From the NCBI GenBank assembly GCA_963855995.1, contig OY979729.1, positions 7,272,115-7,336,114 of the forward strand: 64,000 nucleotides of DNA. The letters are read 5' to 3'. The position numbers and the translations under genes were made by a program. The notes beneath the pieces are model-generated. The model worked only from the letters and a program-made list of their open reading frames with translations, ran no database searches and was not told where the DNA came from. This document shows, piece after piece, positions 10,504 to 49,129 of the stretch. The stretch's first letter is position 1; every line of letters starts with the position of its first letter. The stretch comes from Muricea muricata (taxonomy: Eukaryota; Cnidaria; Anthozoa; Malacalcyonacea; Plexauridae).

Positions 10504-10515
10504 TCTGATAGCAAG

Positions 10516-15053: not shown

Positions 15054-15274
15054 TTGTTTTCTAAGTTGTAATAATAATTTAGTTATGTAGAGATATGTCT
15101 ACACGTACGTACAACAGAGTAATTTTAGTAGTTAATACATCTAAAAATTTGTTATTATTATTTCCATTATTATTTATAAAATGTAATAATTTTTATATGC
15201 ACATCCCTTCTGGAAATCAGCTAATGTTGAGAAGATTAATGTGTTTAAATAAAGGTTTATCTATCTATCTATCT

Positions 15275-15437: not shown

Positions 15438-15570
15438 GGGTTTTGTTTAATTTCCGGCTCGGTAACGTAATACTGCGAAGCATAGCCGATACCAAGCCGA
15501 CGTAGGCCTAAGGTATAACGTAACATAAAGAATCGGTAATTTTAGTGTTTCAGATTTTTAAGTTAACAGT
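15438..15570 (+). other. Leader between 18-bp array and transposase gene, shared with 37.9 kb
   Basis: About 130 bases separate the array from the ATG at 15571. Read by eye, most of it aligns with the reverse complement of about 37880-38010, next to the second 18-bp array. Shared segments include AATTTCCGGCT, TACTGCGAAG, AGCCGATAC and TTTTTAAG(T/C)TAAC, in the same order and spacing. This makes the pair one leader of a transposon family, probably holding the promoter or 5' UTR. Confidence 0.8.
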
Positions 15571-16686
15571 ATGGCTCGCTTACGAAATTGTATTGTGCTT
15601 ATTCTGTTTGTTTTTAGTCAAGATTTTCGTGCAATAGATTGCATTGATATCCCTTTAGAATGGTTGTCATATTTGCGTGAAATGGTAAGGAAATTTGACG
15701 CAGAACCATGGTCACCTGTATGTGTTCCCCATAGCATTATATTGACGATCGAACAGCGTGCGAAGATCTCAGGCAATGTCTTTCCAAACATTATATTTTG
15801 GGATCCTCTAGTTCAGTTTCCTCAATTAGCAACGTCTATAAATAAATGTGTAGCTGATAACTGCGAAGAAGTTATGACGAGGAGAGAATGGCAGGATGGT
15901 CGAAACAAAGCCTCAATGCCACGTGTTATTCATGGAATTGACGGAATAGTACTACTTGTTAGCAGAATATATGTTTGCAACTCTGGTCATCGATGCATTA
16001 GTCACGACGAACGAATTTTATTAGCCTTTCCATCTTCTGCTCATTTGCCTTTCGTGTTGACTCATCGTTCTGGCCTGACAAGTCGTTGTCTTTCGTTAGT
16101 AATATCTTTAATCGAAGAAGGTAAAAGAATTTCCGCAATTGAAGCTGCTTTGCGTGAGACGAGAAAGGATGTCTTTTACCGCAACTGTTTGTGTTATGCT
16201 AAGCTGCAAAGCAATACAGACAAACTTGACGCCCCAAAATTTGAACAATCAGTGAATGGGTTATTTTGTCCAGGAAAGAAAATTTTACTGTCGGCATTTC
16301 TACAAAACTTTTGGAATAATGAGATCTATTATAGACGAAGAATGCACAATGTAGGTATTAACAGCGACTGGATATGTTGTGATCATACATTCAAATCAAT
16401 AACGAATATTGGAATTTACCAACCTAATGGAAGTGGCGGTTTTAAATGGGTTAAGCAATTCAAATCGCTTTTTATCGTACTTAATGACATTGGCCAGGTT
16501 TTATCCTGGCAGTTTGCTGACGACACTTCTATAGATACGGTTTGTGAACTGTTGAGGGAAATCAAAACAAGGCTGGCTGTTAAAAAGGAAAATCTAAGGG
16601 AAATTTACGTTGATGACTGCTGCAAAGTCAGATACAAATTACAGGATATTTTTGGTCACGATGTTTTGAAATTCAAAAGTATTTGA
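15571..16686 (+). pseudogene. DDE transposase of the array-flanked family, 3'-truncated copy
   Basis: The 371-residue frame is the N-terminal half of the protein encoded complete at 18258-22130. The shared core reads CCDHTFKSI (first catalytic Asp), a strand-rich segment ending GQVLSWQF, and IYVDDCCKVR (second Asp). In the intact gene the next block is KLDLFHACQ; here the match ends at about 16669 and the frame stops at 16686, so the third catalytic residue, OTU domain and CXC domains are missing. The N-terminus has a hydrophobic stretch (CIVLILFVFS), as in the intact gene. It reads away from the 18-bp array. The break is where an unrelated transposase relic begins on the other strand. Confidence 0.85.
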
Positions 16687-17310
16687 CGGTCCATTAACCG
16701 TGTTAGCGTACGTAACACCTGTTAAACCACAAAGCAGGTTAAGGGTCACATTGGCTGTTTGGCAGTACCTACATACTTCGACTGCCCTCTCTCCAACCTT
16801 TGCGTGACCATAATTTCTTGATCCAGCGTTAGGAAGTTTTATCCCACAGTCGTCGAAATATTGAAGCTTATATGGATCTTTTCCGTACAAGTAGTCTACG
16901 AAAAGCTGTGTATAAGCCATGTTAGCAATTGTGAAACGTTCTTGAGCCACATTCGTGACTTTTTTAAACGAAAATTGTCCATCAGGTAGTTTATATTTTA
17001 CTGCATTACAGAGAGAGGTTGTCGACGTACTACCTTTTGGGAGATCTCCAAACTCGTACAAGCACTCCATAACTTCTGAATACGTTATAGACGGCTTCTG
17101 TGTTTCTAAAACTTCCACTAACTGAATATCACCATCTGAAAGACTCCGTTTGTTCGCCACATCAACAAAGCTTTAAGCTCCCCGTGAAAATACCTGTATC
17201 TTTATCGCCTCCCTTAGATTTGATTTCGTCAATAATATTAAGTCTTCTGTTTGGAGAAATAGGCTTTCCGTTTTGAAAACAACTACCTTTCTTGTTTAGC
17301 CGCCACATTT
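16669..17310 (-). pseudogene. IS630/Tc1-like DDE_3 transposase relic
   Basis: Reading leftward, a degraded N-terminal stretch (about 17310-17165: RLNKKGSCFQNGKPISPN, then INIIDEIKSKG-like residues) looks like a helix-turn-helix. It is separated by an in-frame stop from a 173-residue frame starting at 17160. That frame shows LQYFDDCGIKLP (first catalytic Asp region), AGSRNYGHAKVGERAVEVCRY and VTLNLLCGLTGV, the pattern of IS630/Tc1-mariner DDE_3 domains common in invertebrate genomes. It stops after NGPSNTFEF, before the second and third acidic residues. The protein is therefore incomplete at both ends. Its left end is fused to the truncated transposase at 15571-16686. Confidence 0.75.
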
Positions 17311-17393: not shown

Positions 17394-17850
17394 GAAACAA
17401 TGTCATTTGACCTTAGAAACGGTCAATTTTTAATAGCCCAACGTGCGTTGCGAACGCATGTCGTTTCACGGTCAAACGGAATCGGCTGTAATGTTTTTAC
17501 AGTTGTTGGTGTTTTTGTCGTTGTTGGTGTGTTTATAGATCGTATATGGATTCAATTTCTAAAGAAATTAATAATAATGATTTAAATTTGCATAGCATGA
17601 CCAAATTGTCGGGCTAGTTTCGCTACTGAATCTGCGTCAAAAATTGTAGGAACAGAGGTTACAGAGTGATATTTGACGTTTTCTAAGATGACTTTGCGAG
17701 TTTACTTGACCAGACGATATAGTTCTGAGACAATTTTTTGTTCATTTCACAATCAAATATAAAAGTTAGATTTGAACTATAAAGTCATTTAAGTGCATCA
17801 ACGAAATATGAATATAATTACGCGAAAACTTGTCTAATAACTGACATTCA

Positions 17851-18257: not shown

Positions 18258-19015
18258 TCATTTAGCTTGCATTTCTATGTCAGCCAATCTTATGTAAATA
18301 TCCTGTTTACCACGAAGATGAAGAAGTTTCGCGGCAATTTGTGCGCTTCTTTTTTTCCCAATTTCTAACTTCATTTCTAAAACAGAATCTGAAGACGCCA
18401 AATATTGATACAAACGTGTCACGTTGGAAACATCAACCAGCAAGTTACTACACTGCAAAACGTCTTGTAAAACAATTAAAGTCATTGTTTCTAGTTCAGT
18501 CCATGGACCGATAGAAATATCAAATCCTTCTTTCGCGAGATAACTCGATCCTTTCGATCTTTTATAAACATTGCTGTTTTCACGTTTTCTTTTTTTCGCA
18601 CTAATGGAGTCGCTATGAACTTCGTTCCTGGATGCTTCAGTTATGTTGCCGCAATTCTTACATTTGCATGTAATTGAGCAACTAACACCGTGAAGCAAAC
18701 ATGGGCATCTTGATTTACGCAAAGTGTCTTTGCTCGACGTAGGGCTATTGTGGCAGGAACATTGTATAAATACGCCGGCGGCGGGGAAAAAGTGCTCGGC
18801 AGATCGCTTAATGGGCGGCTTATTGCCACAATTCTTACACCTGCATGCTCGAGAACAGGTTGCGTTGGCTTTTACACAAGGACATCTTGCCATATTTGTA
18901 TCATCGCTGAAGCAAGAAGGATTTGTAGAACCCTCTTTCTGTTTTCTACCGCAGCTGCATCCTTTCTCAGCACTGTTTCCTCGGATACGGTTGGATGTGT
19001 GGCAATCACCAATAG
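18258..19015 (-). other. Exon 2 of the transposase: two Tesmin/TSO1-like CXC domains
   Basis: Two similar cysteine-rich units occur: CSCGRKQKE then RCPCVKANATCSRACRCKNC, and CSCHNSP then RCPCLLHGVSCSITCKCKNC. They resemble the CXC (CRC) zinc-binding motif of Tesmin/TSO1 proteins, which binds DNA through clustered zinc ions. A basic KKRKREN stretch, probably a nuclear localisation signal, and a 100-residue helical tail follow. The frame is open upstream to 19082, but the acceptor at 19016-19017 joins in phase with exon 1. The CXC units are the likely DNA-binding part of the transposase. Confidence 0.8.
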
Positions 19016-22000
19016 CTAAAACATATTTGAATATTTGAAAACAAAATTTTATTGGTTTTGTTAGGCCTACAATGTTCAGCAATGTTGAATAAAAACAAAC
19101 CCGATTTAATATAGATCAAACGTTACACACCAAAGTGCCCAAAGTAAATTTAACAATATTGCATTAAGCAATTAATTGCCATTACTGGTTTGAGGGGGGG
19201 GGGCTTTTGAAAACAGCTTATTCAACTCTTCTCGTCAGTGCAAGCTTTACTACGGTAAAATATCATTTAACTTTTTTATAATTACTTAAATAATTTATAA
19301 TTAATTTCTATAATGACTGATGTTGCTGCTGTTGTTGTTGTTGTTATTATTATTGCTGTTGTTGCAAGGACCGCTGAGAGAAATTCTGCAGCAAGGGGCT
19401 AAATTTTTCCTCTGGGCCCTATGACGTTTTAATAACAAACGATGTCATAAAGAGCCCTCGTGCTGTAGACCCAAGTTGAAAAAGGGTCGGCAATTTTCTC
19501 AATTTGCAAATGGATTCTACCAACCTCAACAGTACATTTTTAAGAAACCTCGTTTAATTTTAGGTCATCTCTCGGCTGGTTTGCTGTTGTGGTTGTTAGA
19601 ATGAGAGTATATACCTAAACATATAAATTAAAATACCTTTGGTTCCGTCATAATGGCCAGGAGTCGTGTGATTGAAAGCAATGTAAATTGGTGACGAATA
19701 TCTTATTCTGTCGGGAATAAAAGTGAAATGTGGAGCTCCTGGGTATGAGGTAATTACCACAATGGGCAATCCTAACACATTGCAACACACTTTTACACAC
19801 ATATCAGCTAGATTGCAACTAAATCTCCCATTTTCACTCATATAACTTATTTCATGAAATAGTTCTTCTTCCGGCAACCCTATCCACTCCTGGTACTGAG
19901 AAGTGTTTTCCTTTAACTCTTGTAAGAATAATGTACGTAGAGTTACCGCGTCGTTATCAGGTGAACACCCCAGTAAGTTAAGAGCTTTTAAGTACTTAAT
20001 GTGTTTCAGTCTCGCGGAGTCATCAGTATCGCAGAGCTCTTCTGTTGAGAATGGAAATAACTTGTGCAGCTGGAGCGAAATACTGTGAAAACAGCAATTA
20101 CCATCTCCGATCACAGTATCCACATCCAAATTGAAAGAGTTTAAGTTTCTTTTTAGGGTTTCTTTGTTTTTGCCCTCCTCAACTGATGCAAATTTGTCTA
20201 CATCTAAATTATTTATATTGTCGTAGTCAGAGCATCGTATTAGAGAGGCGTGCTCTTTAAAACCTGATAATAAGGGAAAGTCAAGGAGATTCAAGCTACG
20301 TATTGCACATTGATTGTTTATCTTTTGAACAGTCTCGTACAGTTGCAAAGTTCTTTCGATGATATACATCACAGTTGAGCTGTTAAGCAAGTCATCAAGA
20401 ACAGTAACGTGCAGAAAGGTGTTACCACACTGATCAGCATCTTGTTCAGTTGGTCCCATGGCAAGTCTTTCCTTGGTTTTATCTGCAAAAGGTGGTGGAA
20501 TTTCTTTGGACGCGTCATTGTTCACTTTGAACGGCAGGGCTGTTGAAGAAGCGCAGTTATTAGAAATATCTTCTGAATATTCAGCTGGAATAATAGGTAC
20601 AACTCTCTGATTTTTTATGTGTTTGACACTTTTTTTCCTGTTATTCCATACGTATAATGCTAATGTGAGGCATGCAATAGCTAGTTCAGGGGAAATTGTA
20701 TTAGCTCCAACCAACAGCGACTTTCGCAAATGTCGGTGTAAACGCTCATTTTTTTCTGTTCCCTCCCCCGGCAAAATTCCTGACAAGCATCCTTTATTTA
20801 TGTGCCTTCTAAGGTCATCAACCGATTTCAGCGTTTTTGCATTGAGTTGACCTTGCCAACGACAAAGGAGTTGCTCAAGATTTGCAATTATTACTTCAGG
20901 CTCTGGTGTGGTCATTTCTCTTTCTTCGCCAACGTCACCATCCACTCTAAATATCAAACCGAACTCTCTTGAAAATTGATTTTTTATTCCATCATGATCT
21001 AATGTTTGTATAACGCGTTGACACGCGTGAAAAAGATCAAGTTTAATTTTTACGTTACCGCCGAAAACGTTTTGATAGCTATTGCGCATTTTACAACAGT
21101 CGTCGAGAATTATAACTTCCAAATTAATGCCGCTGTTTAGCATTCGTTCTTTTAAGTCAAACAATAAGTCTTCTATTTCCTTAAAACCCGTTGTCTTTGT
21201 CAAACGCCATGCAACCACCTCGCCATATCCATTCATCCCGAAAAAACATCCATCAAATTGTTTAACAAAAGAATTGTCATTTCTTACAATTCCGATATGC
21301 TTGCTGACTTTAAAAGTGTGGTCAAATGACATTACGGTGCCAGTCAACTTCTGCATTTCAGCATGAAAAATGTGTTTAGTTTCTTCATAATGGCATAGGA
21401 ATATGTGCATCAGTTTATCGTTACTAGGAAAAGAATATAAGACATTTCCATAAAACGACTGTAAGTCAGCTGCATTACTAGTATGCTCTCCAAGAATTAA
21501 CTTTCTTCGCTGAAAATTGCGGTAGTTTAACGATGCCAAGCGCTCGGTAATTTTAACAAAATTTTGTCCTATTTCAATGCTTGTCCAGAGATTATCAAGC
21601 AGGTCATGCGTCAATGCACTTTTGTAATGTAAAATAATTGGGAGCTTATTTGCCAAATTTCGTGGAATAGCATCCATAATGGATTTTGATGCTGAAAGAA
21701 AGGTGTGTTTCAGCCACGTTGAACTTCCAGACGAAGCACATTCGTAATATCTCTGAATGAATACAACATTTCCACCAGTATCATATACCATACGTGGATT
21801 TAAATAATTTTCTTTAGAAAGCACGGATTGCCATTTTTTACAAACTAGTTGCACATTATGGATGGGACACATTAATGGTAGTGTAAAATGACTAATCGGG
21901 CACCAAATAAAAACTTTTGGGAGGAACGCGCAGTCACTGTTCGAAGTTAATATGATGTTATCGTATTTACCATCAGCAGGATTCTTTTCATATTCTGCGA

Positions 22001-22130
22001 GCAATTGATGCAGGATATTCTCGGCTTTTTCATCAATATACACTCCCTTAGTAAGAGTAATTAGTTGTGACAGCACAAGCATGTAGTGAAACATCTTGAA
22101 GCCCGTTGTACAGTAAAAACAAATGAGCAA
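18258..22130 (-). CDS. DDE transposase fused to OTU protease and two CXC domains (two exons)
   Basis: Exon 1 is 22130-19637 and exon 2 is 19015-18258, joined across a 621-base GT-AG intron in matching phase (AAAG|gtattt, ttttag|CTATTGG); the product is 1,083 residues. Residues 265-465 form an RNase-H-like DDE core: FDHTFKVSKHIG (D270), ILDDCCKMRN (D343/D344), KLDLFHACQR, and GTEKNERLHR (E462). Residues 670-830 are an OTU cysteine-protease domain with GDGNCCFHS (C679) and a HYDGT catalytic histidine (H826). Exon 2 adds two CXC zinc-binding units. A weakly signal-like hydrophobic start (residues 12-28) is odd for a nuclear protein; a later start is possible. No frameshift or stop is visible, so this may be an active autonomous transposase. 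Its 5' end faces a minisatellite and a conserved terminal block. I recognise the family as a metazoan transposon protein but cannot name the superfamily (KDZ or MULE-related are candidates). Confidence 0.87.
19016..19636 (-). other. Intron of the transposase gene
   Basis: Bounded by GT at 19636-19635 and AG at 19017-19016 on the minus strand. It includes a poly-G run (about 19194-19203) and a TTG/TTA trinucleotide microsatellite (19322-19364). Nothing else is recognisable. Confidence 0.7.
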
Positions 22131-22256
22131 TTCGACTCAATACAATTTTATTTACAAGCCCGTTGTACAATTTTATAATATAGCATTTGTAAATCCTGAA
22201 CACTGATTGGCTAAGAGCCGTGTTGATATAACTCGATGTAAACACGGAAAATTTCG

Positions 22257-22553
22257 AACAGCAATAACACTAATAACGGCAATAACACCAATAACAGCAA
22301 TAACGCCAATAACAGCGAGAACGGCAATAACTCTAATAACACCAAGAACGGCAATAACAGCAATAACGGCAATAACAGCAATAACAGCAATAACGCTAAT
22401 AACGGCAATAACACCAATAACAGCAATAACGGCAACAACACTAACAACACCAATAACGGCAACAACGCCAATAACAGCAATAACGCCAATAACGCCATTA
22501 ACACCAGTAACGGCAATAACACCAATAACAGGAATGACGCCATAACGGCAATA
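22257..22553. repeat. 9-bp minisatellite upstream of the transposase gene
   Basis: About 33 units of a 9-mer such as AATAACGGC, AATAACACC and AATAACAGC. The unit sequence is unrelated to the GTAGTGTTCTTGGCGTTT array but has half its period. It sits between the transposase start (127 bases away) and the 83-bp terminal block, the position the 18-bp array takes in the copy at 38 kb. Confidence 0.93.
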
Positions 22554-22636
22554 ACTACTAAACAGATATCACTACTGTATATATTAGCACTGGTCACACG
22601 GATCCATTCCAGTCCCATAAGATGAAGTACATACCC
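22554..22636 (-). mobile_element. Transposon terminal block, copy 1 (83 bp)
   Basis: An 83-base segment from ACTACTAAACAGATATC to GATGAAGTACATACCC, identical by eye to 42003-42085. Homology ends at the outer CATACC(C), after which the three copies differ. Read outward to inward it starts GGTATGTAC. It marks the outer end of the element holding the transposase at 18258-22130. A left partner was not found, so it is unknown whether the family has terminal inverted repeats. Confidence 0.85.
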
Positions 22637-22695
22637 TGTTTATAGCAAGCCATACAACTTATTACCTGACTTATTACCATAAATTGATTGTATAC

Positions 22696-22736
22696 CATCC
22701 TCGCCCCAGGGCCTTTTCTGGGAACGAGGCAGACTA
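22696..22736. repeat. Short palindrome related to the 31.1-kb MITE end
   Basis: CCTCGCCCCAGGGCCTTTTC is followed by TGGGAACGAGG, the two ends of the CCTCGTTCCCAGGGCC family back to back. It looks like an almost fully deleted copy of the element at 31112-31768. Confidence 0.55.
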
Positions 22737-22828
22737 ATTGATCTAGGTTGACTGTATGCGTATTGATCAGTGGGGAATAACCTATTTAACAAATACCTTA
22801 ACAACCTATTTAGCAAATATATTGGCTA

Positions 22829-24115
22829 TAAAACCTATTGTTCCAATAGTACCTAGAGTACCAATAAAACCTATAGTACCTATAAAACCTATAGTACCTA
22901 TAAAACCTATAGTACCTATGAAACCCATAGTACCTATAAAACCTATAGTACCTATAAAACCTATAGTACCTATAGTACCTAAAAAACCTATAGTACCTAA
23001 AAAACCTATAGTACCTATAAAACCTATAGTACCTATAAAACCTATAGTACCTATAAAACCTATAGTACCTATAAAACCTATAGTACCTATAGTACATATA
23101 AAACCTATAGTACCTATAAAACCTATAGTACCTATAGTACCTATAGTACCTATAGTACCTATAGTACCTATAGTACCTATAAAACCTATAGTACCTATAA
23201 AACCTATAGTACCTATAGTACCTAAAAAACCTATAGTACCTATAGTACCTATAGTACCTATAAAACCTATAGTACCTATAAAACCTATAGTACCTATAAA
23301 ACCTATAGTACCTATAAAACCTATAGTACCTAAAAAACCTATAGTACCTATAAAACCTATAGTACCTATAAAACCTATAGCACCTATAAAACCTATAAAA
23401 CCTATAGCACCTATAAAACCTATAGTACCTATAAAACCTATAGTACCTATAAAACCTATAGTACCTATAAAACCTATAGTACCTATAAAACCTATAGTAC
23501 CTAAAAAACCTATAGTACCTATAAAACCTATAGTACCTATAAAACCTATAGTACCTATAAAACCTATAGTACCTATGAAACCTATAGTACCTATAAAACC
23601 TATAGTACCTATAAAACCTATAGTACCTATAGTACCTAAAAAACCTATAGTACCTAAAAAACCTATAGTACCTATAAAACCTATAGTACCTATAAAACCT
23701 ATAGTACCTATAAAACCTATAGTACCTATAAAACCTATAGTACCTATAGTACCTATAGTACCTATAGTACCTATAGTACCTATAGTACCTATAAAACCTA
23801 TAGTACCTATAAAACCTATAGTACCTATAGTACCTAAAAAACCTATAGTACCTATAGTACCTATAGTACCTATAAAACCTATAGTACCTATAAAACCTAT
23901 AGTACCTATAAAACCTATAGTACCTATAAAACCTATAGTACCTAAAAAACCTATAGTACCTATAAAACCTATAGTACCTATAAAACCTATAGCACCTATA
24001 AAACCTATAAAACCTATAGCACCTATAAAACCTATAGTACCTATAAAACCTATAGTACCTATAAAACCTATAGTACCTATAAAACCTATAATAATAGTAC
24101 CTATAGAACCTATAG
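22829..24115. repeat. 9/18-bp minisatellite (CCTATAGTA / CCTATAAAA)
   Basis: About 140 units of two alternating 9-mers, most often paired as CCTATAGTACCTATAAAA. A marker with CCTATAGCA variants recurs at 23379 and 23991, 612 bp apart, and the variant order around each matches, so the array contains a duplicated higher-order unit of 68 nine-mers. A 489-codon frame crosses it (repeating KPIVPI) but is a product of the period. No transposase gene adjoins it on the left. Confidence 0.95.
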
Positions 24116-24198
24116 TGTGTATATTGGTTATGGTATTTATAGATACATCGTTTATTGACCTATGTGGACTGGCGCCTATATGTCATGGAATTGTAACG

Positions 24199-24235
24199 CG
24201 GATCCATTCCAGTCGCATAAGATAAAGTACATACC
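24199..24235 (-). mobile_element. Transposon terminal block, copy 2 (outer 37 bp only)
   Basis: CGGATCCATTCCAGTCGCAT and the following bases to GTACATACC match the outer part of the 83-bp block with two substitutions. The inner part differs. It closes the minisatellite at 22829-24115 on the same side and in the same orientation as the other two copies, so it is probably a gene-less or internally deleted member. Confidence 0.8.
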
Positions 24236-25165
24236 TTCCGCGGTCCGCCGTCCGCGGTCTGCCTTTTACCACATCGCAGGCTCGGGGAACGAGATTGACC
24301 ACACCCGTACTACTTCCGCTAATCGTTTCCTTTGCTTCCCTCTGCGAACTTGGTGCGGATGCTAACTGTAAGATCTTGAAACAATCGGCGATAAAAACCT
24401 ACCGTGGAAAATGTAAGTATAAAAACATTAACGGTTTATTATATTTATAGAAACACATATTTTATATCTTGTTCTTGTTTTGAGTGCTTTTGAATGTATA
24501 CTGATTTGTACTTTTGGGATTCTACAGGGAGGGCCAGCCCTACTAGACGATATGCCTCGTGCTATTTGAAACAATACTCAGAAAAGGCGTTCACATGAGA
24601 CGAGGGTCAGCCTCCCTATTATGCGAGATGTTGCTGTTGACAAGACGTAATCGCGCCTAGTGTAGGGCTGGAAATTTTCCATATAAACGTGTCAAGGAGG
24701 AGAGCTGTGATTCTAATAACATAGCGTAGGGAAGCCATTCAATGCTGTTTGTCACAGGGAGCCATCCTGACAAGAGGTCATTTCTCTGATAACACGTGTC
24801 TTTATTTCTCATTGTAACATCACTTCCCAACACTGAATTGTTATTTCATTTTGGGCCTTATAGAAAATTCTTGACAGGTACATAACATTTGGTTTTTGTG
24901 AATTGTGACGATACTTGTAAAAAAATTGCAGCAGTATTTGGTTTTTAAATCGATTAAAAAATCAAGTAAACGTTATAGACGTTGAGATTTATACTTGTGG
25001 AAATCTAACTTGAAATAAGTGTCGAATTGGGCATAAACTTATATAACATATAAATCTTGCACCCTTTTTAATCCTGGCCTTGGTTGGTGCGTTTAATTGT
25101 AGATCATGACAGAATCAAGTCAATCATCGACTTTATTGAAGAACACCAAGCAATTTAATGATAAA
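24236..25165. other. Non-coding interval
   Basis: A GC-rich start (CCGCGGTCCGCCGTCCGCGG, a small inverted repeat) gives way to AT-rich sequence. AAAATGTAAGTAT at about 24408-24420 has the look of a splice donor and could end a 5' exon of the gene at 29626, but nothing proves it. No other feature is visible. Confidence 0.4.
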
Positions 25166-25404
25166 GGGCCAGTTGTTCGAAGTCCGTTTAGCTTAAACGG
25201 TGGATAAGTCAAATTTAAATCACACTCCCATTTATCTTGTGTACGACTGAACTTAAGTTTTAAACACTAAATATGTAGTTATATACATTAGTGTTTATTT
25301 AATGTTGAAATATTTTAACTTAGTTGCTCAATAAATACATAGAGTTGTTTGATATTTTAGACTTATCCACTGTTTAAGCTAAACGGGCTTCGAACAACCG
25401 GCCC
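25166..25404. mobile_element. MITE with about 40-bp inverted ends
   Basis: The ends are GGGCCAGTTGTTCGAAGTCC and, in reverse complement, GGGCCGGTTGTTCGAAGCCC. Both continue inward with GTTTAGCTTAAAC and GTGGATAAGTC. The 240-base inside is AT-rich and non-coding. GGGCC ends are frequent in Harbinger/ISL2EU-type MITEs; the target duplication is not clear. Confidence 0.85.
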
Positions 25405-25977
25405 AAGATGCCAATATAAAATAAAACTGCAAATGTTAGTTTGCTGTCGTCAGTTATCTGGTCTCCATCCGTATTTGCGCCAAATGGTCAGGTTTACACA
25501 TCTAGTGCTTCATCAGTTTGGTGTACTTTACGGACTATAATACAGTTACGCTAAAATCTCCAAATTAGTACTTGCGCAAAAGGCGCTGGTTAGCAAATCA
25601 CACATCAGTGAATGCTATTTCACGGATCACGGAAAAATCAAAAACTAGTTTCCTAAGGACAGAAAAATATCGATTCACGACTAATCACATGAAAGATATA
25701 TCATCATATTCACGCTTGCACGCAATGCACAAATGGCTACTGATGTTGGAGCATAATTAGCATTTGCAAAATACGTTCATTTCATCAGCAACACGAAAAT
25801 TTTTAGGATTTTGCTTTTCTTGTTGACTTTGTCGAAGAAAAACCACTGAAGTACACATTTGGTGCTATAATAGGCTTCCAAATGCTCTAGTGGAGGAAAT
25901 GAGGGAGATTTGAATAAATTTTGGATTAAGAAAACAAATTAAACAAATTAGGCATTTTTAAATGGCGGGTGCCAGCT

Positions 25978-26330
25978 CTGACTGCTTCAAGTTAATGATC
26001 CGCAAAAACAAAAGGTCTTGTAAAGATTGAAAATTAATAATAACGTCATATAATTGTCACGTGTACTAGACCTTGTGTTTTTGCGGATCATTAATGCGAA
26101 GCATTGAGAGCTGTCAAATTAATACAATAGCACAATAGTTTGCAGATAATTTTTAAAAAATTTCTTCATTTGTGGCTTAAGCCCGTTTCCGCACTTTAAC
26201 CCTTTAAGCGTATTCTACAGTGTGTATAAAAAAAAAGCTTAACCCTTCCAATGCGTACAAGACCTTTCATTTTTGCGGATCATTAACTCGGAGCAGTCAT
26301 GCAGTGCTGTCAAATTACTACAAACGCTAT
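25978..26330. repeat. Dispersed repeat in three copies, direct and inverted
   Basis: A motif centred on TTTTTGCGGATCATTAA occurs in reverse at about 25990-26015 and forward at about 26064-26092 and 26268-26290. The two forward copies also share a trailing AGCTGTCAAATTA-like segment. This looks like overlapping copies of a small inverted-repeat element. 25405-25977 shows nothing I can annotate. Confidence 0.6.
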
Positions 26331-26336
26331 AGCTAA

Positions 26337-27717
26337 GGGACGGACTATTAAATTTTTGAGGGGAGGGTTGGGCAATTTTTTTGTGCATGTTTTTTTTTCA
26401 CCCGATCCGAACGTTGTATCCCAATAACATTATTGTCTCCAATAAATTATTGGGATTGTTAGGGTCAGGGTTGGGGTTTGGGTCAGGGTTCATTTTATAT
26501 GGATGATATGACTGATGAAATGAATTCCAGTAACTATTGGAATTATCAAACGTTGTAACTAGTAATTTTATTGGAATACAACGTTCGGATCGGTTGTTTT
26601 TTTTTCGTGGCAGTTAAACACGTTGGAATTTTTTTTCTACTACATTTTATTGCAAGATTTTTTCAACAGACACATATGTCCTTTTATTAATTCTCTTTTG
26701 TGGTATATATCCCACAAAAAATTCACATGTTGCGCTATTAAATTATATACCAGTTCAGTTATATACCAGATATATAACTGATTATGATATTAAGTTGATA
26801 TACACTGGTACAGAAAAAGGCATAGAATTTGTGGAATGTACTGAGCTTGAATTAATAAGCTAAAATTACAATGACTTTTGCGTCTTACCATTTATATTAT
26901 TTGTTTTTAATATGCTATTCATGTTGCGTTATACCAAAAGTTCAGTAATGAACATTATTTGATAACTGATAACTTGCTACACTGGTGTGATTAATGTTGA
27001 AGGAACACTTTTAAAAAACTCATTTTTATTTAATGTTAATTTCCCTAAAATGTGACCAGGTGACCATTTTGGACAGAAATACATGCGAAACATACAATGT
27101 GAGCTATTTAATAATACAAAGATATTTTCCAGGGTTGGTAACTTGGCTTTTCTAAGGCCAAATAACTCGATTTTGGCTTTTATATTTCTCGTTTGGCCTT
27201 GAAAAAATGTTTGGCCTTTTGGCTTTATTTTGGCTTTTTTATCGACTGACAAAATTTAAGTAAAAACTGTCAATGCCGTAGACACATTCGTGTAAATGCG
27301 CGTTATTTTGTGTATGTGTTCAACATAAAACTGTATCATTTTTTGTGAAGTTGAAGACTTTGGAACTTAAATTTAGAATACTTGAAATTAGCTGGACCAA
27401 ATCTGATTGATACCATGTCAAAACATTGATGAAATTTGGCTCTTTTTCACTTTTTGGCTTTTTTGGAAAAAAAAATAAAATTTGGCCTTTTTTAAAACGC
27501 CATTTGGCTTTGTGCATGCGCAAAAGCCTAACAACCCTGATATTTTCGCCAATATATCATCTGGGATTTAACAACAGCGACCTTAAACAACTTGCTCGAT
27601 TTTTTTTTAAATTTGTTTATTTGTGCGCGATATTTTTTATTCCCATTTTTTTTCGTGCGCGAATTTTTTTTTTGGTATTTGCTTAACCCTCCCCTCAAGA
27701 ATTTAATGGTCCGTCCC
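26337..27717. mobile_element. Inverted-repeat element GGGACGGAC, with a nested MITE
   Basis: The left end GGGACGGACTATTAAATT pairs with right-end GGGACGGACCATTAAATT in reverse complement, each followed by GAGGGGAGGGTT. No transposase can be recognised inside; the longest frames (27426-27686 and complements) are low-complexity, full of TTTGGC and poly-T. A second element (26401-26598) with ends CCGATCCGAACGTTGTATCC is nested near the left end. Confidence 0.75.
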
Positions 27718-27926
27718 AAATTTGAATTTGAAAGGTTAAGTCTTTTTTGATACACACTGTATTGTGTCAATATCATTAGTTCTGCTTGAGTGTTCACGAA
27801 ACAATGAAATACGCTACGCTGAAGTGGAAAACGAGCTTTATTATACTTAATGATGAATTCGTTCTCGAAATTTTAGTATTTTCCCATCTGTCATGCTTCA
27901 ATTGGGTAGCATAAACTATAAACATA

Positions 27927-28120
27927 AGACCCCGTTTACACGGGACCGGGTCCGTGTGGTCTCGATATCTTGTTCTGTCAGTTTACTGTCATATTTGCTC
28001 TTATACCACTTTTCCTATCATATGCTTTAATTAAGTTCTGTAATATTATCACAAATTTAAGAGTCATGCTAGTCTTGAGACCTGGTGACCACACGGGCCG
28101 GTCCCGTGTGAACTGGGTCT
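27927..28120. mobile_element. MITE with AGACCC ends
   Basis: Left end AGACCCCGTTTACACGGGAC and right end in reverse complement AGACCCAGTTCACACGGGAC, continuing inward with CCGG and GTGTGGTC. 194 bases, non-coding. Confidence 0.75.
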
Positions 28121-29625
28121 AAGATTAAACTGCACAGCTAAGCAGATTGAACAGAGTACTATGCAGAGGGCTCACTTTATGTCTTTCCTTATATGGTTTT
28201 GGCATAACGTAAATTTCCAGACTCGTTTTCTCATAGAGCAATGGATTTCCAGTATCCAAATTTATTGCCAGAATATTTTATGAAGACAAAAAAATCAATT
28301 AGTGGGCTTTTATTAGGCTAGGCTTATGCGCAGAAAAACCCGGTTACGCCTTTTTTGCTGAGTGAGCCCTTTGTATGTCTCCGTGGAATTATTACGGCAT
28401 GCAAACGTCCAAGTCTAGTGAGTAGCGTGTATACTGATTTTTTTCAATCTAGCGGCTCAGCTCGCTATCTCATATGAACTAGAAGTCATCATCACACACA
28501 TCGCGTTAACCAGGGTAATATAAACAGGCCCTCACAAACAGTTTAAGTATCCTACAATGCAAGTTTAAATTGAAAAACTCAGAGAACACATCAGTAAAAA
28601 AAATACCAAATGGTAGAAGCTGTCAAGCGAGAAATACCGAAAGCAAACTGTTGCTAATTCAGCTTGAACTTTTTTTTTAAAATACGACATCAAAATAAAT
28701 TGTTAGAAATAAAACGCGGATGCAGATATACATATGAAAATGGAAAGTGTGGACAGGGGATAAAATGGGAATAGAAAATGCGGATAGGGGATAAAACACG
28801 AATAGGGGATAATCAATGGTAGTTGAACTTACTTATATAGTTGATATTAGTTTGACAAGTAGGCCTAGCTAAATAATTTCATACAACTTTGACGAGTCAT
28901 TCTAAAATATACCAGCATCCGAGGTTTTTGTGTAAAAATAACTATTTTTGGACATGTAATGTATTATAAACAGTACATCAAAGATAACTTAGCATTGATG
29001 TATACGTAGCTTTAGTGAAATGCAGTGTTAAAAAACATTTTGAAAAGATAATCCGGATATAATTGAACATCGTGCTTTGAATAGCAGGAGGTAAAGATTT
29101 TGTAACTTTATATAACTAACTTCATTATTGTATTATTTTACAGTGAAGAATAATACAAACCAACCGGCGACAAACGCGAGCCTTCGCATAAAGGCTTGCA
29201 AAATTCGTAGTCTGCGGTGTATATAACAACATATCAAGTTAATAAAGAACACTTATGATCATTTATTAATGCACAAAACTTACATCAAAACAAACTTATT
29301 ACAGTTTGTTTTCCACTATCCCATCACACTTTGCGTCTAACCCCCCGCTTTGCTTGCGTTTTATCTTCCACTTCACATTTTTTCTGGTGGGGGTGTTATG
29401 GCTCCGCGTTTTATCATGACTATATTATATTTAGGTTACTTGTATATTTGCATGGCGAACATCAAATATCAGTTTAAACTGTGGATTTTATAGTTTCCCA
29501 TACATTTTGTTCAATATCGTATATTTTATTCATATATATGATGAAAAATAGAGGAGGACAGTATTGTTACTTGCGTATTTATGTTACGTGATAATATTTA
29601 ACCTTTTTGTCTATTCTATCTGTAG
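28121..29625. other. Non-coding interval, with traces of the GGATAAAAC family
   Basis: AT-rich. GGGGATAAAA-type motifs at about 28755-28812 and inverted GCGTTTTATC motifs at about 29357-29416 recall the ends of the MULE-like element at 46980-48898, and may be a decayed copy. A pyrimidine-rich tract ending CTGTAG immediately before 29626 is the acceptor of the next gene's first visible coding exon. AGGGCTCACTT (28166) and GAGTGAGCCCT (28361) could be ends of another small element. Confidence 0.4.
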
Positions 29626-36009
<6,384 letters not shown>

Positions 36010-37526
36010 GAACTTGGCATTCACTTCAGTGACTGTAGAGCCTGTTCCTGACACTAGAATAAGTGATAATTGGAGAAGCGAATATTCATATATCGTGCTC
36101 TGCATCATTAATTTCTTTTGAAATCCATTGTTGATAAGGTTTGTCAACACAAATATATGAATACTCGCCCCTCTGTGAACACAAATATATGAATACTCGG
36201 CCAATTATCGACGCTAGCTACGCCACTGCGTGCAAGTAAAAAAAAACAAGGGGAATAAATATAAGGTAATAAAGATCAACGAAATAAAGATCAACCTACA
36301 TATAGGCCCGGTTTAAAGCCGCATTTACTTGCGCCGAATTAATAAAGAATTGATTGTATTCTTGGGTTTCGCGTGATGTCGTAAATTTCAGTCAAGTCTG
36401 AATCGACACACAACCGTCAGATTAAATTAAATGTTCACGGTATGTGTTGGCCTATCAGCTAGCCGACAGATTTTTCTTGATTTATATGAAATGTATTCAA
36501 AATTACTTCGCCAAATTAGATCTATAAAATCCTGCAGGGTAAACGCTAGCTAACTGAAGTTTAAACCGCTAGCCATGTTGATTGTTGACCTTTGTTTTGC
36601 ATTTATGCTTGTGTCATAGCGCAGTCAATGGCATGCAGTTCATGTAATAATGTACACTGATGTAAGAAATCAAGTGACAGTAGTGGGTCACGATAGTGTT
36701 TTGTTTCGTTAAAACTGGCTTCCACACAGGGAAACTCTCCTTAAAATACCTGTAAGTTCCCAGCTAGAACTCACTGTTAACACAGGGTTTAGTACTTAAA
36801 TGGTTGCGTATTTAGTTGGGTTAGCCCCTTTGGGGGCTCTTTTTGGCATGATGTTACCTAAAAATTGAAACGGTAATCTAAAAACTGTAATATAACTTTT
36901 AAAAAGAAATAAATTTGAAATTGTTTTTCCAATTTAGATTTCTTGTGAAAAAGCCATGTATAAATCTAATATAGATGAAGTCTTAATCACGAGATAATGC
37001 TAGAAATATAACAATCATTACACCTGGCCAATAAATTACATTTTAGCTAATATTAATAATGATTATCAAATCAAGTATCCAGAGTTATCTTCGAAAAACT
37101 TAGCTTTCAGTTTCCACTTTTTGCGAGTACTAGAATAACAATGCGTAGATTCCTGTTGCTTAGGATAACCAGTCCAGACACGTTTTATGCATAACGTCCA
37201 CAACAAACAAGATCTGGATGTGAAGTTACGGAAAACGCCTTTTTATTCTTATTTTAGGCTCCGCTCCTGTTAAGGATCATCTTTTGCGTTCATTCCTTGA
37301 ATCAATTGGTTATTAACCACTATTACATGATATTAACTGCCTCCTCCGCAGGTTCTTAATAAGGCCAATATATAATTTGATACGCATACAGTAGATATAG
37401 AGCCCATCATCCCCAAGTACTTTGAGCTGCTGAGCTATATACATTACTGTATTAAACAACTTTGAGATATATACATAACTGTGTTAAACTTAAACGTACT
37501 TTGAAAAGTACTAAAATAAAAAGCGA
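36010..37526. other. Non-coding interval with a fragment of a foldback family
   Basis: 36085-36230 holds the direct repeat ACACAAATATATGAATACTC (twice) and GGCCAATTATCGACGCTAGC, related to the right half of the element at 48451-48602. A short GC hairpin (AGCCCCTTTGGGGGCT) is at about 36824-36840. No genes are recognised. Confidence 0.5.
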
Positions 37527-38005
37527 CTGGGGACGAGGCAGTGATATTAAGGCTTTGTTTCAAAGATCCTGCCAAGATCTCTTCTTCGCAGTTATCAGCT
37601 ACACATCTATTTATAGATGTTGTCTACACATCTATTTATGCATGTTGCAAATTGAGGAAACTGAACTAGGGGATTCCAAACTATGTTTGGAAAGACATTG
37701 CCTGAGATCTTCGTACGCTGTTCGATCGTAGATATACATAATGCGCGCTATAGGAAACACACACGGGTGACCATGGTTCTGCGGTTCAGTTCACACACAC
37801 ACGGCCAAACATCCTTACCATTTCATGCAAATATGAAAACCATTCTAAACGGATACCAACACAATTTCCCAAACAAATCATTTTGTTAGCTTAAAAACTT
37901 GAAAAGCTACAACTACCAACATTTTATGCCAAGTTACACCTCGGTTTGCTTCGGCTTAGTATCGGCTTTCCTTCGCAGTATTTATGCTTCCAAGCCGGAA
38001 ATTCA
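37527..38005 (-). pseudogene. Decayed 5' part of the array-flanked transposase gene, second copy
   Basis: The reverse complement aligns by eye with 15440-15920: the shared leader, then TTTAGAATGGTT(T/G)TCATATTT, GCAGAACCATGGTCACC, CGATCGAACAGCGT, AAGATCTCAGGCAATG and TAGCTGATAACTGCGAAGAA in the same order. A block of about 50 bases near the start is missing and several frame-breaking changes are present, so no protein is encoded. Similarity ends near AACAAAGCCT. It reads away from the 18-bp array at 38021, like the plus-strand copy at 15571. Confidence 0.8.
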
Positions 38006-38020
38006 ACAAAACACCACAAA

Positions 38021-41000
38021 GTACAAACGCCACCAACACTACAAACGCCAACACAGTACAAACGCAACAACAGTACAAACGCCAACAACACTACAAACGC
38101 CAACAACACTACAAACGCCAACAACACTACAAACGCCAACAACAGTACAAACGCCAACAACACTACAAACGCCAAAAACACTACAAACGCCAACAACACT
38201 ACAAACGCCAACAACAGTACAAACGCCAAGAACGCTACAAACGCCAAGAACGCTACAAACGCCAACAACAGTACAAACGCCAACAACACTACAAACGCCA
38301 ACAACAGTACAAACGCCAAGAACGCTACAAACGCCAAGAACGCTACAAACGCCAACAACAGTACAAACGTCAACAACAGTACAAACGCCAACAACAGTAC
38401 AAACGCCAACAACAAACGCCAACAACACTACAAACGCCAACAACACTACAAACGCCAACAACAGTACAAACGCCAACGACACTACAAACGCCAACAACAC
38501 TGCAAACGCCAACGACACTATAAACGCCAACAACACTACAAACGCCAACAACACTACAAACGCCAAAAACAGTACAAACGCCAAAAACACTACAAACGCC
38601 AACAACACTACAAACGCCAACAACACTACAAACGCCAACAACACTACAAACGCCAACAGCACTACAAACGCCAACAACACTGCAAACGCCAACAACACTG
38701 CAAACGCCAAGAACGCTACAAACGCCAACAACAGTACAAACGCCAACAACACTACAAACGCCAACAACACTGCAAACGCCAACAACACTGCAAACGCCAA
38801 GAACACTGCAAACGCCAACAACACTACAAACGCCAACAACACTACAAACGCCAACAACACTACAAACGCCAACAACACTACAAACGCCAACAACACTAAA
38901 AACGCCAACAACACTAAAAACGCCAACAACACTAAAAACGCCAACAACACTAAAAACGCCAACAACACTACAAACGCCAACAACACTACAAACGCCAACA
39001 ACACTACAAACGCCAACAACACTACAAACGCCAAAAACAGTACAAACGCCAAAAACACTACAAACGCCAACAACACTACAAACGCCAAAAACACTACAAA
39101 CGCCAACAACACTACAAACGCCAACAGCACTACAAACGCCAACAACACTGCGAACGCCAAAAACAGTACAAACGCCAAAAACACTACAAACGCCAACAAC
39201 ACTACAAACGCCAAGAACGCTACAAACGCCAACAACAGTACAAACGCCAACAACACTACAAACGCCAACAACAGTACAAACGCCAAGAACGCTACAAACG
39301 CCAAGAACGCTACAAACGCCAACAACAGTACAAACGCCAACAACACTACAAACGTCAACAACAGTACAAACGCCAAGAACGCTACAAACGCCAAGAACGC
39401 TACAAACGCCAAAAACCGTACAAACGTCAACAACAGTACAAACGCCAACAACAAACGCCAACAACACTACAAACGCCAACAACACTACAAACGCCAACAA
39501 CAGTACAAACGCCAAAAACACTACAAACGCCAACAACACTACAAACGCCAAGAACGCTACAAACGCCAACAACAGTACAAACGCCAACAACACTACAAAC
39601 GCCAACAACAGTACAAACGCCAAGAACGCTACAAACGCCAAGAACGCTACAAACGCCAACAACAGTACAAACGCCAACAACACTACAAACGCCAACAACA
39701 CTACAAACGCCAAGAACGCTACAAACGCCAACAACACTACAAACGCCAAAAACAGTACAAACGCCAAAAACACTACAAACGCCAACAACACTACAAACGC
39801 CAACAACACTACAAACGCCAACAACACTACAAACGCCAACAGCACTACAAACGCCAACAACACTGCAAACGCCAACAACACTGCAAACGCCAACAACACT
39901 GCAAACGCCAACAACACTACAAACGCCAACAACACTACAAACGCCAACAACACTACAAACGCCAAAAACACTACAAACGCCAACAACACTACAAACGCCA
40001 AGAACGCTACAAACGCCAACAACAGTACAAACGCCAACAACACTACAAACGCCAACAACAGTACAAACGCCAAGAACGCTACAAACGCCAAGAACGCTAC
40101 AAACGCCAACAACAGTACAAACGCCAACAACACTACAAACGCCAACAACAGTACAAACGCCAAGAACGCTACAAACGCCAAGAACGCTACAAACGCCAAC
40201 AACAGTACAAACGCCAACAACACTACAAACGCCAACAACACTACAAACGCCAAGAACGCTACAAACGCCAACAACAGTACAAACGCCAACAACACTACAA
40301 ACGCCAACAACAGTACAAACGCCAAGAACGCTACAAACGCCAAGAACGCTACAAACGCCAACAACAGTACAAACGCCAACAACACTACAAACGCCAACAA
40401 CAGTACAAACGCCAAGAACGCTACAAACGCCAAGAACGCTACAAACGCCAACAACAGTACAAACGCCAACAACACTACAAACGCCAACAACACTACAAAC
40501 GCCAAGAACGCTACAAACGCCAACAACAGTACAAACGCCAACAACACTACAAACGCCAACAACAGTACAAACGCCAACAACAGTACAAACGCCAGCAACA
40601 GTACAAACGCCAAGAACACTACAAACGCCAACAACACTACAAACGCCAACAACACTACAAACGCCAACAACACTACAAACGCCAACAACACTACAAACGC
40701 CAAGAACACTACAAACGCCAAGAACACTACAAACGCCAAGAACACTACAAACGCCAAGAACACTACAAACGCCAAGAACAGTACAAACGCCAAGAACAGT
40801 ACAAACGCCAACAACACTACAAACGCCAAGAACACTACAAACGCCAAGAACACTACAAACGCCAAGAACACTACAAACGCCAAGAACACTACAAACGCCA
40901 ACAACACTACAAACGCCAACAGCACTACAAACGCCAACAACACTGCAAACGCCAACAACACTGCAAACGCCAACAACACTGCAAACGCCAACAACACTAC

Positions 41001-41995
41001 AAACGCCAAGAACACTACAAACGCCAAGAACAGTACAAACGCCAAGAACAGTACAAACGCCAACAACACTACAAACGCCAAGAACACTACAAACGCCAAG
41101 AACACTAGAAACGCCAAGAACACTACAAACGCCAAGAACACTACAAACGCCAACAACACTACAAACGCCAACAACACTACAAACGCCAACAACACTACAA
41201 ACGCCAACAACACTACAAACGCCAACAACACTACAAACGCCAACAACACTACAAACGCCAACAACACTACAAACGCCAAGAACACTAAAAACGCCAACAA
41301 CACTACAAACGCCAACAACACTACAAACGCCAAGAACACTACAAACGCCAAGAACACTACAAACGCCAAGAACACTACAAACGCCAAGAACAGTACAAAC
41401 GCCAAGAACACTACAAACGCCAAGAACACTACAAACGCCAACAACACTACAAACGCCAACAACACTACAAACGCCAACAACACTACAAACGCCAACAACA
41501 CTACAAACGCCAAGAACACTAAAAACGCCAACAACACTACAAACGCCAAGAACACTACAAACGCCAAGAACACTACAAACGCCAAGAACACTACAAACGC
41601 CAAGAACACTACAAACGCCAAGAACAGTACAAACGCCAAGAACACTACAAACGCCAAGAACACTACAAACGCCAAGAACACTACAAACGCCAAGAACACT
41701 ACAAACGCCAACAACACTACAAACGCCAACAACACTACAAACGCCAACAACACTACAAACGCCAACAACAGTACAAACGCCAACAACACTACAAACGCCA
41801 ACAACACTACAAACGCCAACAACAGTACAAACGCCAGCAACAGTACAAACGCCAAGAACACTACAAACGCCAACAACACTACAAACGCCAACAACACTAC
41901 AAACGCCAACAACACTACAAACGCCAACAACACTACAAACGCCAACAACAGTACAAACGCTAACAACACTTCAAACGCCAACACCAATACAAACT
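38021..41995. repeat. 18-bp minisatellite, inverted orientation, about 220 units
   Basis: Unit ACAAACGCCAACAACACTAC-like with 18-bp period, the reverse complement of the array at 1-10503, with the same variant classes (GAACGCT, ACAGT, GAACACT) plus GCAAACGCC and CTAAAAACG forms not seen there. Shortened units at about 38408-38420 and 39440-39455 shift the reading phase. Open frames of up to 1,205 codons crossing it are artefacts of the period. It is bounded left by the transposase relic and right by the 83-bp terminal block. Confidence 0.96.
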
Positions 41996-42002
41996 AGGCA
42001 GT

Positions 42003-42085
42003 ACTACTAAACAGATATCACTACTGTATATATTAGCACTGGTCACACGGATCCATTCCAGTCCCATAAGATGAAGTACATACCC
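42003..42085 (-). mobile_element. Transposon terminal block, copy 3 (83 bp)
   Basis: Identical by eye to 22554-22636 over all 83 bases, and placed outside a minisatellite in the same orientation. Sequence beyond CATACCC differs. It is the outer end of the element that includes the 18-bp array and the transposase relic at 37527-38005. Confidence 0.85.
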
Positions 42086-46777: not shown

Positions 46778-47035
46778 AAGTCAATTAAAAAACTTCAATA
46801 TTTATACCAGCAAATTCAGTGAAGACAAGAACGGGAAAGGTGGACAATGACGTATTTTGTTGTGTCATGGGAGGGACAAAACAAAACATGACAACACAAA
46901 CTACACACTGATTAATATTGTACGCAAATGAACAAAAACAATACCCTCACTATTCTCTTTTCACAAATGACAAACAGATAAGTGTTGGGATAAAACACGC
47001 ATCCGGAATTACGGAAATACGGAATTGCGGAAGCG

Positions 47036-47223
47036 GAAAAAGGGATAAAACGCGGAAGGGATAAAACGCGGAAAGAGGGATAAAACGCGGAAAAAAGGAT
47101 AAAACGCGGAAAAAGGGATAAAACGCGGAAAAGGGATAAAACGCGGAAAAGGGATAAAACGCGGAAAAAGGGATAAAACGCGGAAAAAAGGATAAAACGC
47201 GGAAAAAGGGATAAAACACGGAA
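47036..47223. repeat. GGGATAAAACGCGGAAAAA array, left arm
   Basis: About ten units of 15 to 19 bp, varying in the length of the A run. It mirrors the array at 48708-48845. Confidence 0.93.
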
Positions 47224-47396
47224 AACCAAAAAGAAGCGTGCATTCAAAAATTTCGAAGTGCTAAAATGTCGTCAATCACTGAGTCCTCCACCGGCATGCC
47301 AACCGAATAGTTTATCCTCTACTAATCAACGTCCTAGCGCGCACATTACAATAGAATTCGAAAATATAAAGTCAGCTCATCCCACAACGCTGTAAC

Positions 47397-48342
47397 ATAT
47401 CCTAGAGAAGGCTGAAGATCTGTTAAACAAAGATTGTGCAGTAATGCAAGCACCCAGTTCGAAAGACGCGGAAACCTTTATGGTTGAAAGCGAAACCATG
47501 GTTAAACCACACTATGTAACTGTAGCAAAAAACGGAAAGGTTACGTGCAACGATTGCCCGGGTTCGAATGCATACAAGATTTGTTCCCATTCTTTAGCCG
47601 TAGCTGAAAAAAATGGTCGTACAGCTGATTACCTAAAGTGGCTCAGAACGAAAGGCCCTCAGCAGATGAATCTTACATCGCTAATTACATCCGATAGCAA
47701 TAAAGGTGTTGGTAAAAAGAGTTCTAAAACATCAACAGCAAGGCGAAACACCAATAAAGCTCCGCCAACCAATGTCGTGGATCGTGTAACATGCATTTCC
47801 ACATTAGAAACAGTAAGTTTATCGCCCTCAACGTCGACAAATCCTACATGCTTACAACCACAACTGGTGGCAACCAATCTTCAGCATTCAAACTCGGGAT
47901 TCGTAAATTCTAGTTTTCAATGTAATCAACCTTCAGGTGCTACATATCCGTCGATGGTATATGCAAGATCTTCTTCTAGCCAATCCTGCGGTGGTTCGTC
48001 ACACGCGTACGGTGGTTTCCGGATCACATTCCTGCAATTAGCTCTCCCCTGGTGCGTTTGTGCTATGGCTGCCCACAAACATTGAAGCCTGGAGGTATGA
48101 TTGCCACCCCTCCTAACGACTTGGTCATAATGACTCGGATGAACAGGCAATATCGAGATAATACTCCGGGAGAAATGAGGTCCAAGGAAGGAAACGTGTA
48201 TTTTCACTTAAATGTTCACTGCATCAGTAGAAAGCAGCCGTATTTCAGTCCACAAATAGCAACTTTGTCAAACGAAACTGCGCCATACCTGACTCAGGCG
48301 CATTTACATTTTCTTAGAGCATTTGGACTAAATTTGCCATTT
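47397..48342 (+). pseudogene. SWIM zinc-finger protein, MULE-associated, with one frameshift
   Basis: The frame is open from about 47397 (ILEKAEDLLNKDCAV) and has its first ATG at 47444. It encodes HYVTVAKNGKVTCNDCPGS then YKICSHSLAVAEKNG, a SWIM-type zinc finger (CxxC with CSH), a Ser/Thr-rich low-complexity middle, and then, after a one-base shift near 48030, the frame at 48052-48342 with LVRLCYGCPQTLKPGG, PPNDLVIMTRMNRQYRD and FHLNVHCISRKQPYF. This SWIM plus C-terminal cysteine/histidine module is familiar from cnidarian transposon-like proteins. The MULE catalytic domain that would normally precede it is missing, so the copy is internally deleted. SWIM fingers bind DNA or protein in MuDR-type transposases. 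Confidence 0.72.
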
Positions 48343-48450
48343 TAAAAAGGGTTGTCCGTTATCTGACTTAGAGAGAAGACATGCAATATTAATTTGAACG
48401 ATTTCTATATTTTTAAAATAAGAAAAAAAATTGAGCCACTTTGCTCAGCG

Positions 48451-48602
48451 GCCGCGGAAGATCGATAACTGGGGGGGGGTACATATTCACATATTCGTGT
48501 CCACAGACTGTAAAAACAATCGATTTCAAAAGAAATTAATGATGCACAACACGAATATATGATTATCTGCTCCCCCCCCCCAATTATCGATCTTCCGCGG
48601 CC
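48451..48602. mobile_element. Foldback MITE nested in the MULE-like element
   Basis: GCCGCGGAAGATCGATAACT followed by a G run at the left is mirrored by a C run and ATTATCGATCTTCCGCGGC at the right. It is 150 bases long and non-coding. A related fragment lies at 36085-36230. Confidence 0.8.
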
Positions 48603-48707
48603 CCTGGCTTTGCTTGGTTCAGTTTTATTATGCTGCAGTCCATACTTGAACAATATTTTCCTTATAATTGATAAAAAATGATGATATAGAACAAAGACGT
48701 GTTATCC

Positions 48708-48845
48708 CTTTTTCCGCGTTTTATCCTTTTTTCCGTGTTATCCCTTTTTCCGCGTTTTATCCTTTTTTCCGCGTTTTATCCCTTTTTCCGCGTTTTATCC
48801 CTTTTTCCGCGTTTTATCCCTTTTTCCGCGTTTTATTCCTTTTTC
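48708..48845. repeat. GGGATAAAACGCGGAAAAA array, right arm (inverted)
   Basis: About seven units of the reverse complement (TTTTTCCGCGTTTTATCCC). It forms the inner part of the right terminal inverted repeat of the MULE-like element. Confidence 0.93.
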
Positions 48846-49129
48846 CGCTTCCGCAATTCCGTATTTCCGTAATTCCGGATCCGTGTTTTATCCCAACCCA
48901 AACAGATCATTCCATAATCGTTACTATATCATAACAACCATGCCTCAGTCCGGCAGAGGACGACCAAAAAATCCAGCTAAATTAATCGTCGAGTAGAAAA
49001 AAGTCGTATTGAAAATAAAAAAGCGTGAACAATGCAGACGAGATCCGAAAAGTGGAAGCTTAGAATTGTCAGTTTGTCGTTATTAGTTGCTAGTTAATAC
49101 ATAATATAGATTTAGCAGTTATAGATTAC

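Follow-up and report, generated by a model that had tools for sequence, protein, structure and literature searches.

Putative Mutator-superfamily transposons with a common outer block and minisatellite-bearing ends in Muricea muricata

Transposase genes of two lineages

The window analysed here is a stretch of 64,000 nucleotides from Muricea muricata (contig OY979729.1), and the transposon material within it is referred to as elements A, B, C, D and X. On the minus strand of element B, an open frame of 846 codons (19596-22136) combines a DUF6729-like region, a DDE core and an OTU domain, which agrees with the OTU-bearing transposase proposed in a first-pass annotation of this DNA. A CXC-containing ORF on the same strand (18258-19115; MSL2-CXC E 1.2e-4, under the curated cut-off) is matched at 18297-19016 by residues 814-1052 of protein P0032 (E 2e-33) and is the probable last exon of the B transposase.

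ORF B has the IS256/MULE-type RNase H-like catalytic fold, with a DDE triad at D272, D345 and E464 and a C/DxxH motif (D367-x-x-H370) after the second D; these residues were assigned by order and spacing and not by printed superposition. The triad spacings are 73 and 119 residues, compared with 66 and 107 in ISCth4, and D345 is a D in 40/44 rows. IS256 profile matches occur in 20 of the 44 rows (best 3e-7, far under the 150-bit cut-off) and weak MULE profile matches in seven (best 0.0047), and neither family is listed for the window's ORF B itself. Pfam returned three families for ORF B at E<=1, with neither a PHD finger nor a THAP domain among them. A BFVD fold search gave six matches at E<=0.001, OTU proteins included, and was of no help for classification; in the pdb_via listing OTU domains dominate the matches listed, beyond which other families are possible. 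Named by their sources among the listed transposase relatives are proteins from Nematostella (P0016, P0035), Actinia (P0032), Xenia (P0020), Oculina (P0096) and Desmophyllum (P0199), all of which we take to be anthozoans. Protein P0001, 99% identical, represents 67 member sequences, a number that points to numerous copies in the host or a closely related genome, although members may be redundant between sources. In viral_contigs and genome_contigs, four and two stretches fitted a peptide pattern and none was confirmed as a transposase relative.

A second transposase lineage is found in element A on the plus strand (15443-16686), where a leader precedes a truncated ORF (stop to stop 15562-16686; tblastn match 15781-16665). 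The readable gene start lies behind the left array, with the first ATG at about 15571. Across 306 columns, this ORF shares 28.1% amino acid identity with ORF B (E 1.5e-27), and no MULE match was among the families listed for its lineage (12 rows). Element X retains, on the minus strand, the decayed remains of a lineage-A leader and 5' gene portion (37541-38009), which are 70% identical to 15443-15922 with gaps counted and 86% identical to the lineage-A leader without them (356 matches, 58 mismatches). The leader of ORF B showed no match to the lineage-A leaders of A and X at E<=1.

Minisatellite arrays and the block at their outer edge

Arrays and their base periods were called with Tandem Repeats Finder (TRF). 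Three arrays on the minus strand, the subterminal minisatellite of B (22257-22555; 9/18 bp), the CCTATAGTA/CCTATAAAA array of C (22826-24116; 9/18 bp) and that of X (38022-41994; 18 bp), have the base periods of 9 or 18 bp given in the first-pass annotation. The minisatellite of A, on the plus strand and with a period of 18 bp, extends past the left window edge (1-10504), and its remainder (15274-15442, also 18 bp) is cut off by a LINE with an esterase ORF (10985-12151) and an endonuclease and reverse transcriptase (12155-14257); the two parts look like a single interrupted array.

Read as its reverse complement, the unit of array 1-10504, GTAGTGTTCTTGGCGTTT, agrees with that of 38022-41994 at every consensus position (18/18). 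The two arrays also have variant units in common, and 12 unit types follow one another in the same order in both, a run whose length did not exceed 8 in any of 20 shuffles. Compared with the same 38022-41994 unit, the unit of 22257-22555 matches at 13/18 positions at best rotation (P 0.016) and that of 22826-24116 at 7/18 (P 0.93). The units thus fall into three families, with a probable relationship between two, and the initial description of the arrays as completely different has to be given up. Array lengths range from 0.3 to >10 kb. Array 22826-24116 contains an exact repeat of 382 bp at an offset of 612 bp, and internal duplication of this kind is how the arrays grow.

Outside these arrays lies a terminal block. 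The 83-bp copies of B (22554-22636, outer end 22636) and X (42003-42085, outer end 42085), both on the minus strand, are identical at 83/83 positions as originally reported, and the third copy claimed alongside them is found in decayed form in C (24177-24235, minus strand; 83% over 59 columns, 39/43 at 24193-24235). All three copies in the 64-kb window have the same orientation, and each is indeed placed just outside a minisatellite, the block starting 1, 9 and 77 bp from the end of the array on its left. The same array edge carries the block in 3/3 copies; the 80-bp stretches on the right-hand side of the five array ends make up 0.63% of the window. The two full copies diverge directly after CCC, so the outer block edge read inward is GGGTATGTAC, which would fit the expectation for a transposon end. 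A gene start just inside two of the block-bearing arrays had also been reported: it is intact at 22257-22555, but at 38022-41994 only the decayed leader and 5' fragment are present, and behind array 22826-24116 no transposase match was found. The block as outer end of DDE-OTU transposase elements, outside a subterminal tandem array, is supported, and the corresponding first-pass claim stands within the window.

The block could also be an unrelated short mobile element that landed by chance beside the arrays, which is the MITE alternative that had been named as refuting this claim. The single orientation, with no block in the 64-kb window convincingly paired with an inverted copy, would be in line with such an origin, but the constant array side, the transposase leader behind two of the copies and the identical order and exact 9-bp target duplication of element D (below) make it extremely improbable. 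No target duplication around B, C or X and no second block end there was found in the window. TGTTTATAG, which adjoins the block at 22637 and has a second copy at 17530, was rejected as a target duplication for B, since the second copy is part of an array relic; a fraction of 0.033 of simulated sequences contain such a 9-mer in the region by chance. A candidate left end at 30868 was discarded as well: it departs from the terminal motif at 4/21 positions, inspection by eye showed nothing else in common, and the flank lacks a matching 9-mer. The block pattern had 0 matches in viral_contigs and genome_contigs, and Rfam gave 0 matches at gathering thresholds.

The identity of the B and X ends stops at the block/array edge. 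The leader of B matches neither that of A nor that of X, and the X leader matches A's; X thus joins a leader and array of lineage A to the same 83-bp sequence that ends element B. An identical block before two very different transposase lineages, seen in two copies, is unusual and is the most surprising point of the locus. The block of A itself is unseen, the left array running out of the window before its outer end, and an identical block may simply be native to lineage A. Alternatively, the end may have been exchanged or converted between the lineages, or one transposase may recently have moved both. Perhaps the 83-bp block is even an exchangeable end cassette, with divergent Mutator-type lineages of one genome swapping complete outer ends at the block/array boundary, the array serving as a sequence-independent buffer and mobility following the cassette and not the gene, though we consider this unlikely.

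In another reading, A and X would terminate a single large element whose long inverted ends each comprise block, array, leader and gene start; B, C and other DNA would be nested inside it, and its left end in A, off the window, would be expected to be flanked by ACTTGTCCC. The arrays and leaders of A and X are mutually inverted, and Galileo copies are known to lengthen their TIRs by taking in internal sequence (PMC3573991). The A and X leaders nevertheless differ at 58/414 ungapped columns, the left array is very uniform, with four types making up 571/580 units, compared with 162/216 for the four commonest types of the less uniform array 38022-41994, and the interior would be 22.6 kb with a multi-ORF DUF3987 region. 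Such a large element is accordingly quite improbable.

Composite inverted ends and the role of the array

Element D (46980-48898) is complete and belongs to another family. Its TIRs (46984-47032 and 48849-48897) agree at 48/49 positions, its inverted arrays (47033-47225 and 48698-48848; TRF) have a period of 19 bp, and an exact 9-bp target duplication, CAAACAGAT (46971-46979 and 48899-48907), occurs on the plus strand of the window only at these two flanks. The order is TIR, array, interior, inverted array and TIR, with slightly asymmetric ends in which the duplication is separated from the TIR by four bases on the left and one on the right. With D, an end-plus-array layout accompanied by a proven 9-bp duplication is documented for this genome. 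The D ORF (47396-48085) has 34 listed relatives, one of them the window's own, and one cluster with 43 members. The relative P0227 contains a C-x2-C...C-x-H stretch that is SWIM-like by eye, and Pfam gave SWIM at 0.14 in one of seven proteins scanned, so D is a plausible, unproven MULE derivative.

The 19-bp period of D speaks against a general rule of nine. Array spacing may, as proposed, matter more than sequence, but the 9/18 bp common to the block-bearing and left arrays is not shared by D. A period of 9 as the trace of repeated 9-bp target duplications would likewise be at odds with D, which combines such a duplication with units of 19 bp.

Element B probably had arrays at both ends, because a 47-bp stretch on the plus strand (17492-17538) matches array 22257-22555 in inverted orientation (76.6% over 47 bp, E 5e-6; score 25, compared with at most 23 in 300 shuffles). 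A left block of B is absent, the best inverted-orientation motif matches in the window falling elsewhere. Composite inverted ends are complete in D and represented in B by one full array and this relic, and X and C have one end only. The window very probably holds a cluster of intact and decayed Mutator-superfamily (MULE/IS256-like) transposons with Foldback-type composite ends.

A working model can start from what is directly established, namely the block identity, the array position, the open DDE-OTU frame and the inverted pair of end arrays, of which D has both in full and B has one with a relic of the other. The ends would be ordered as an outer block of ~80 bp, then the minisatellite, then the transposase gene. 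The transposase would recognise and cut at the 83-bp block, and the element would move by cut-and-paste with a target duplication of 8-10 bp. The array would be an expandable subterminal stretch, enlarged by ordinary tandem duplication, and its sequence would be free to drift or be replaced because the essential signal is held by the outer block; it may contribute weak secondary binding sites. We regard this explanation as a whole, including the minor role of the array, as reasonably probable.

Alternatively, the array could be essential: the N-terminal or CXC region of each lineage's transposase would bind the array of that lineage, which would act as a series of sites, and array and DNA-binding domain would change together. 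A and X, both with lineage-A leaders, have one unit and lineage B another, and the unit of the right-hand D array resembles the D terminus (its score was reached in 2/1000 shuffles; a poorly phased unit gave P 0.34). Against this stand the spread of lengths from 0.3 to over 10 kb, an end block that is identical although the arrays differ, and B and X units that resemble their own block no better than shuffles do (P 0.99 and 0.22). An essential array is thus doubtful. The same two values led to the rejection of the block as the source from which the array unit was copied in B and X, and P 0.82 to that of the full block as the source of the C unit. The C unit does resemble (P 0.02) the 119 bp that directly adjoin its array on the outer side, which may contain decayed units.

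Relation to known elements and implications

Drosophila FB and sea-urchin TU elements are further elements for comparison beside those discussed here. Muta1 and other Aedes aegypti MULEs have a similar plan, in which subterminal tandem repeats come after a short terminal motif: 10/12 long-TIR families, with Muta1 among the active ones, have repeats of 9-15 bp, target duplications are 8-9 bp and the type is termed type 2 Foldback (PMC5225508). Muta1 differs by its 9 repeat copies in 145-bp TIRs, compared with arrays of 0.3 to >10 kb here, and by a transposase of 504 aa for which the accessible text reports neither OTU nor CXC (PMC5225508). Rehavkus is similar as a MULE outgroup with a minisatellite by the 3' TIR and a 9-bp duplication, but its PHD finger was not found in ORF B, its array units are 164 bp in Tribolium, and the clear arrays here lie between the end block and the 5' end of the gene (PMC6446971, PMC10218199). 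Rehavkus-1_TC has short arrays within inverted termini (PMC10218199), and minisatellites also occur in the aphid Phantom (PMC6446971).

Galileo/Foldback elements likewise have a conserved outer end of ~40 bp, whereas their inner TIR varies and in some subfamilies contains tandem repeats, and chimeric Galileo copies combine TIRs of different subfamilies; unlike the elements here, Galileo belongs to the P superfamily and has a THAP domain, 7-bp duplications and ~210-bp repeats (PMC3573991, PMC3688188). Foldback-like TIRs with internal tandem repeats are shared with Tetris, whose arrays gave rise to a satellite (PMC4079207), and with the Mutator-like Tm1, which has 9-bp duplications (PMC3169594). 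The repeats are 220 bp in Tetris and a ~14-bp motif in Tm1, and the accessible text of both papers reports no OTU-CXC transposase (PMC4079207, PMC3169594). The catalytic fold, DDE order and C/DxxH motif are those of the IS256-family ISCth4, which differs as a bacterial 1.5-kb element with copy-out/paste-in transposition and 31-bp TIRs (PMC7780238). The accessible parts of PMC2872659 (coral MITEs), PMC6431247, PMC13359780 and PMC9587614 contained no closer relative, and no OTU-carrying MULE with minisatellite ends was found in the literature searched, a set that mostly excluded subscription papers and Repbase Reports.

Other Mutator and Foldback elements already display the end layout itself. 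What this window adds is the OTU-CXC enzyme, the great length of arrays built from short units and the common end, by which the MULE/Foldback plan would be extended to a large OTU-CXC transposase family. It also offers a case of an identical terminal block with a divergent array and gene behind it; if this block were indeed an exchangeable cassette, one active end could capture any transposase gene and any array. The question of whether tandem repeats in transposon ends are binding sites, or by-products that seed minisatellites of >10 kb, is thereby made testable.

The interrupted 18-bp array and the end of the lineage-A transposase

The 18-bp minisatellite of element A, the Mutator-like element at the window's left edge, is interrupted by a LINE at 10505-15273, which terminates in ATCT repeats and carries an esterase-type ORF (Lipase_GDSL_2, 2.7e-10) as well as an endonuclease-reverse transcriptase region. 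The latter (RVT_1, 1.1e-28) switches reading frame near 14240. Where the truncated transposase ORF of lineage A, the second transposase lineage, stops short, the minus strand holds an open frame of 177 aa (16639-17172), for which a Pfam scan returned nothing better than 0.09.

The DUF3987 region

An ORF matching DUF3987 (3.4e-20) is located at 29626-30432, and more plus-strand ORFs follow downstream to 36009. Together, the plus-strand ORFs of 29626-36009 may be exons of a single gene.

Further inverted-repeat structures

Short GGGATAAAACACG-like tandem units and their inverted counterpart occupy 28700-29420. Judged by eye, they look like a decayed relative of element D, the complete element of another family. 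The segment at 60396-61365 is an additional inverted-repeat element carrying internal minisatellites, with inverted arms (86%) flanking two ATAAGCCCCC tandem arrays that share one direction. Several more inverted pairs are found within 54812-63935, including 58703-58947 with 59378-59622 (98%) and 62212-62579 with 63605-63935 (79%), and these pairs suggest nested inverted-repeat elements.
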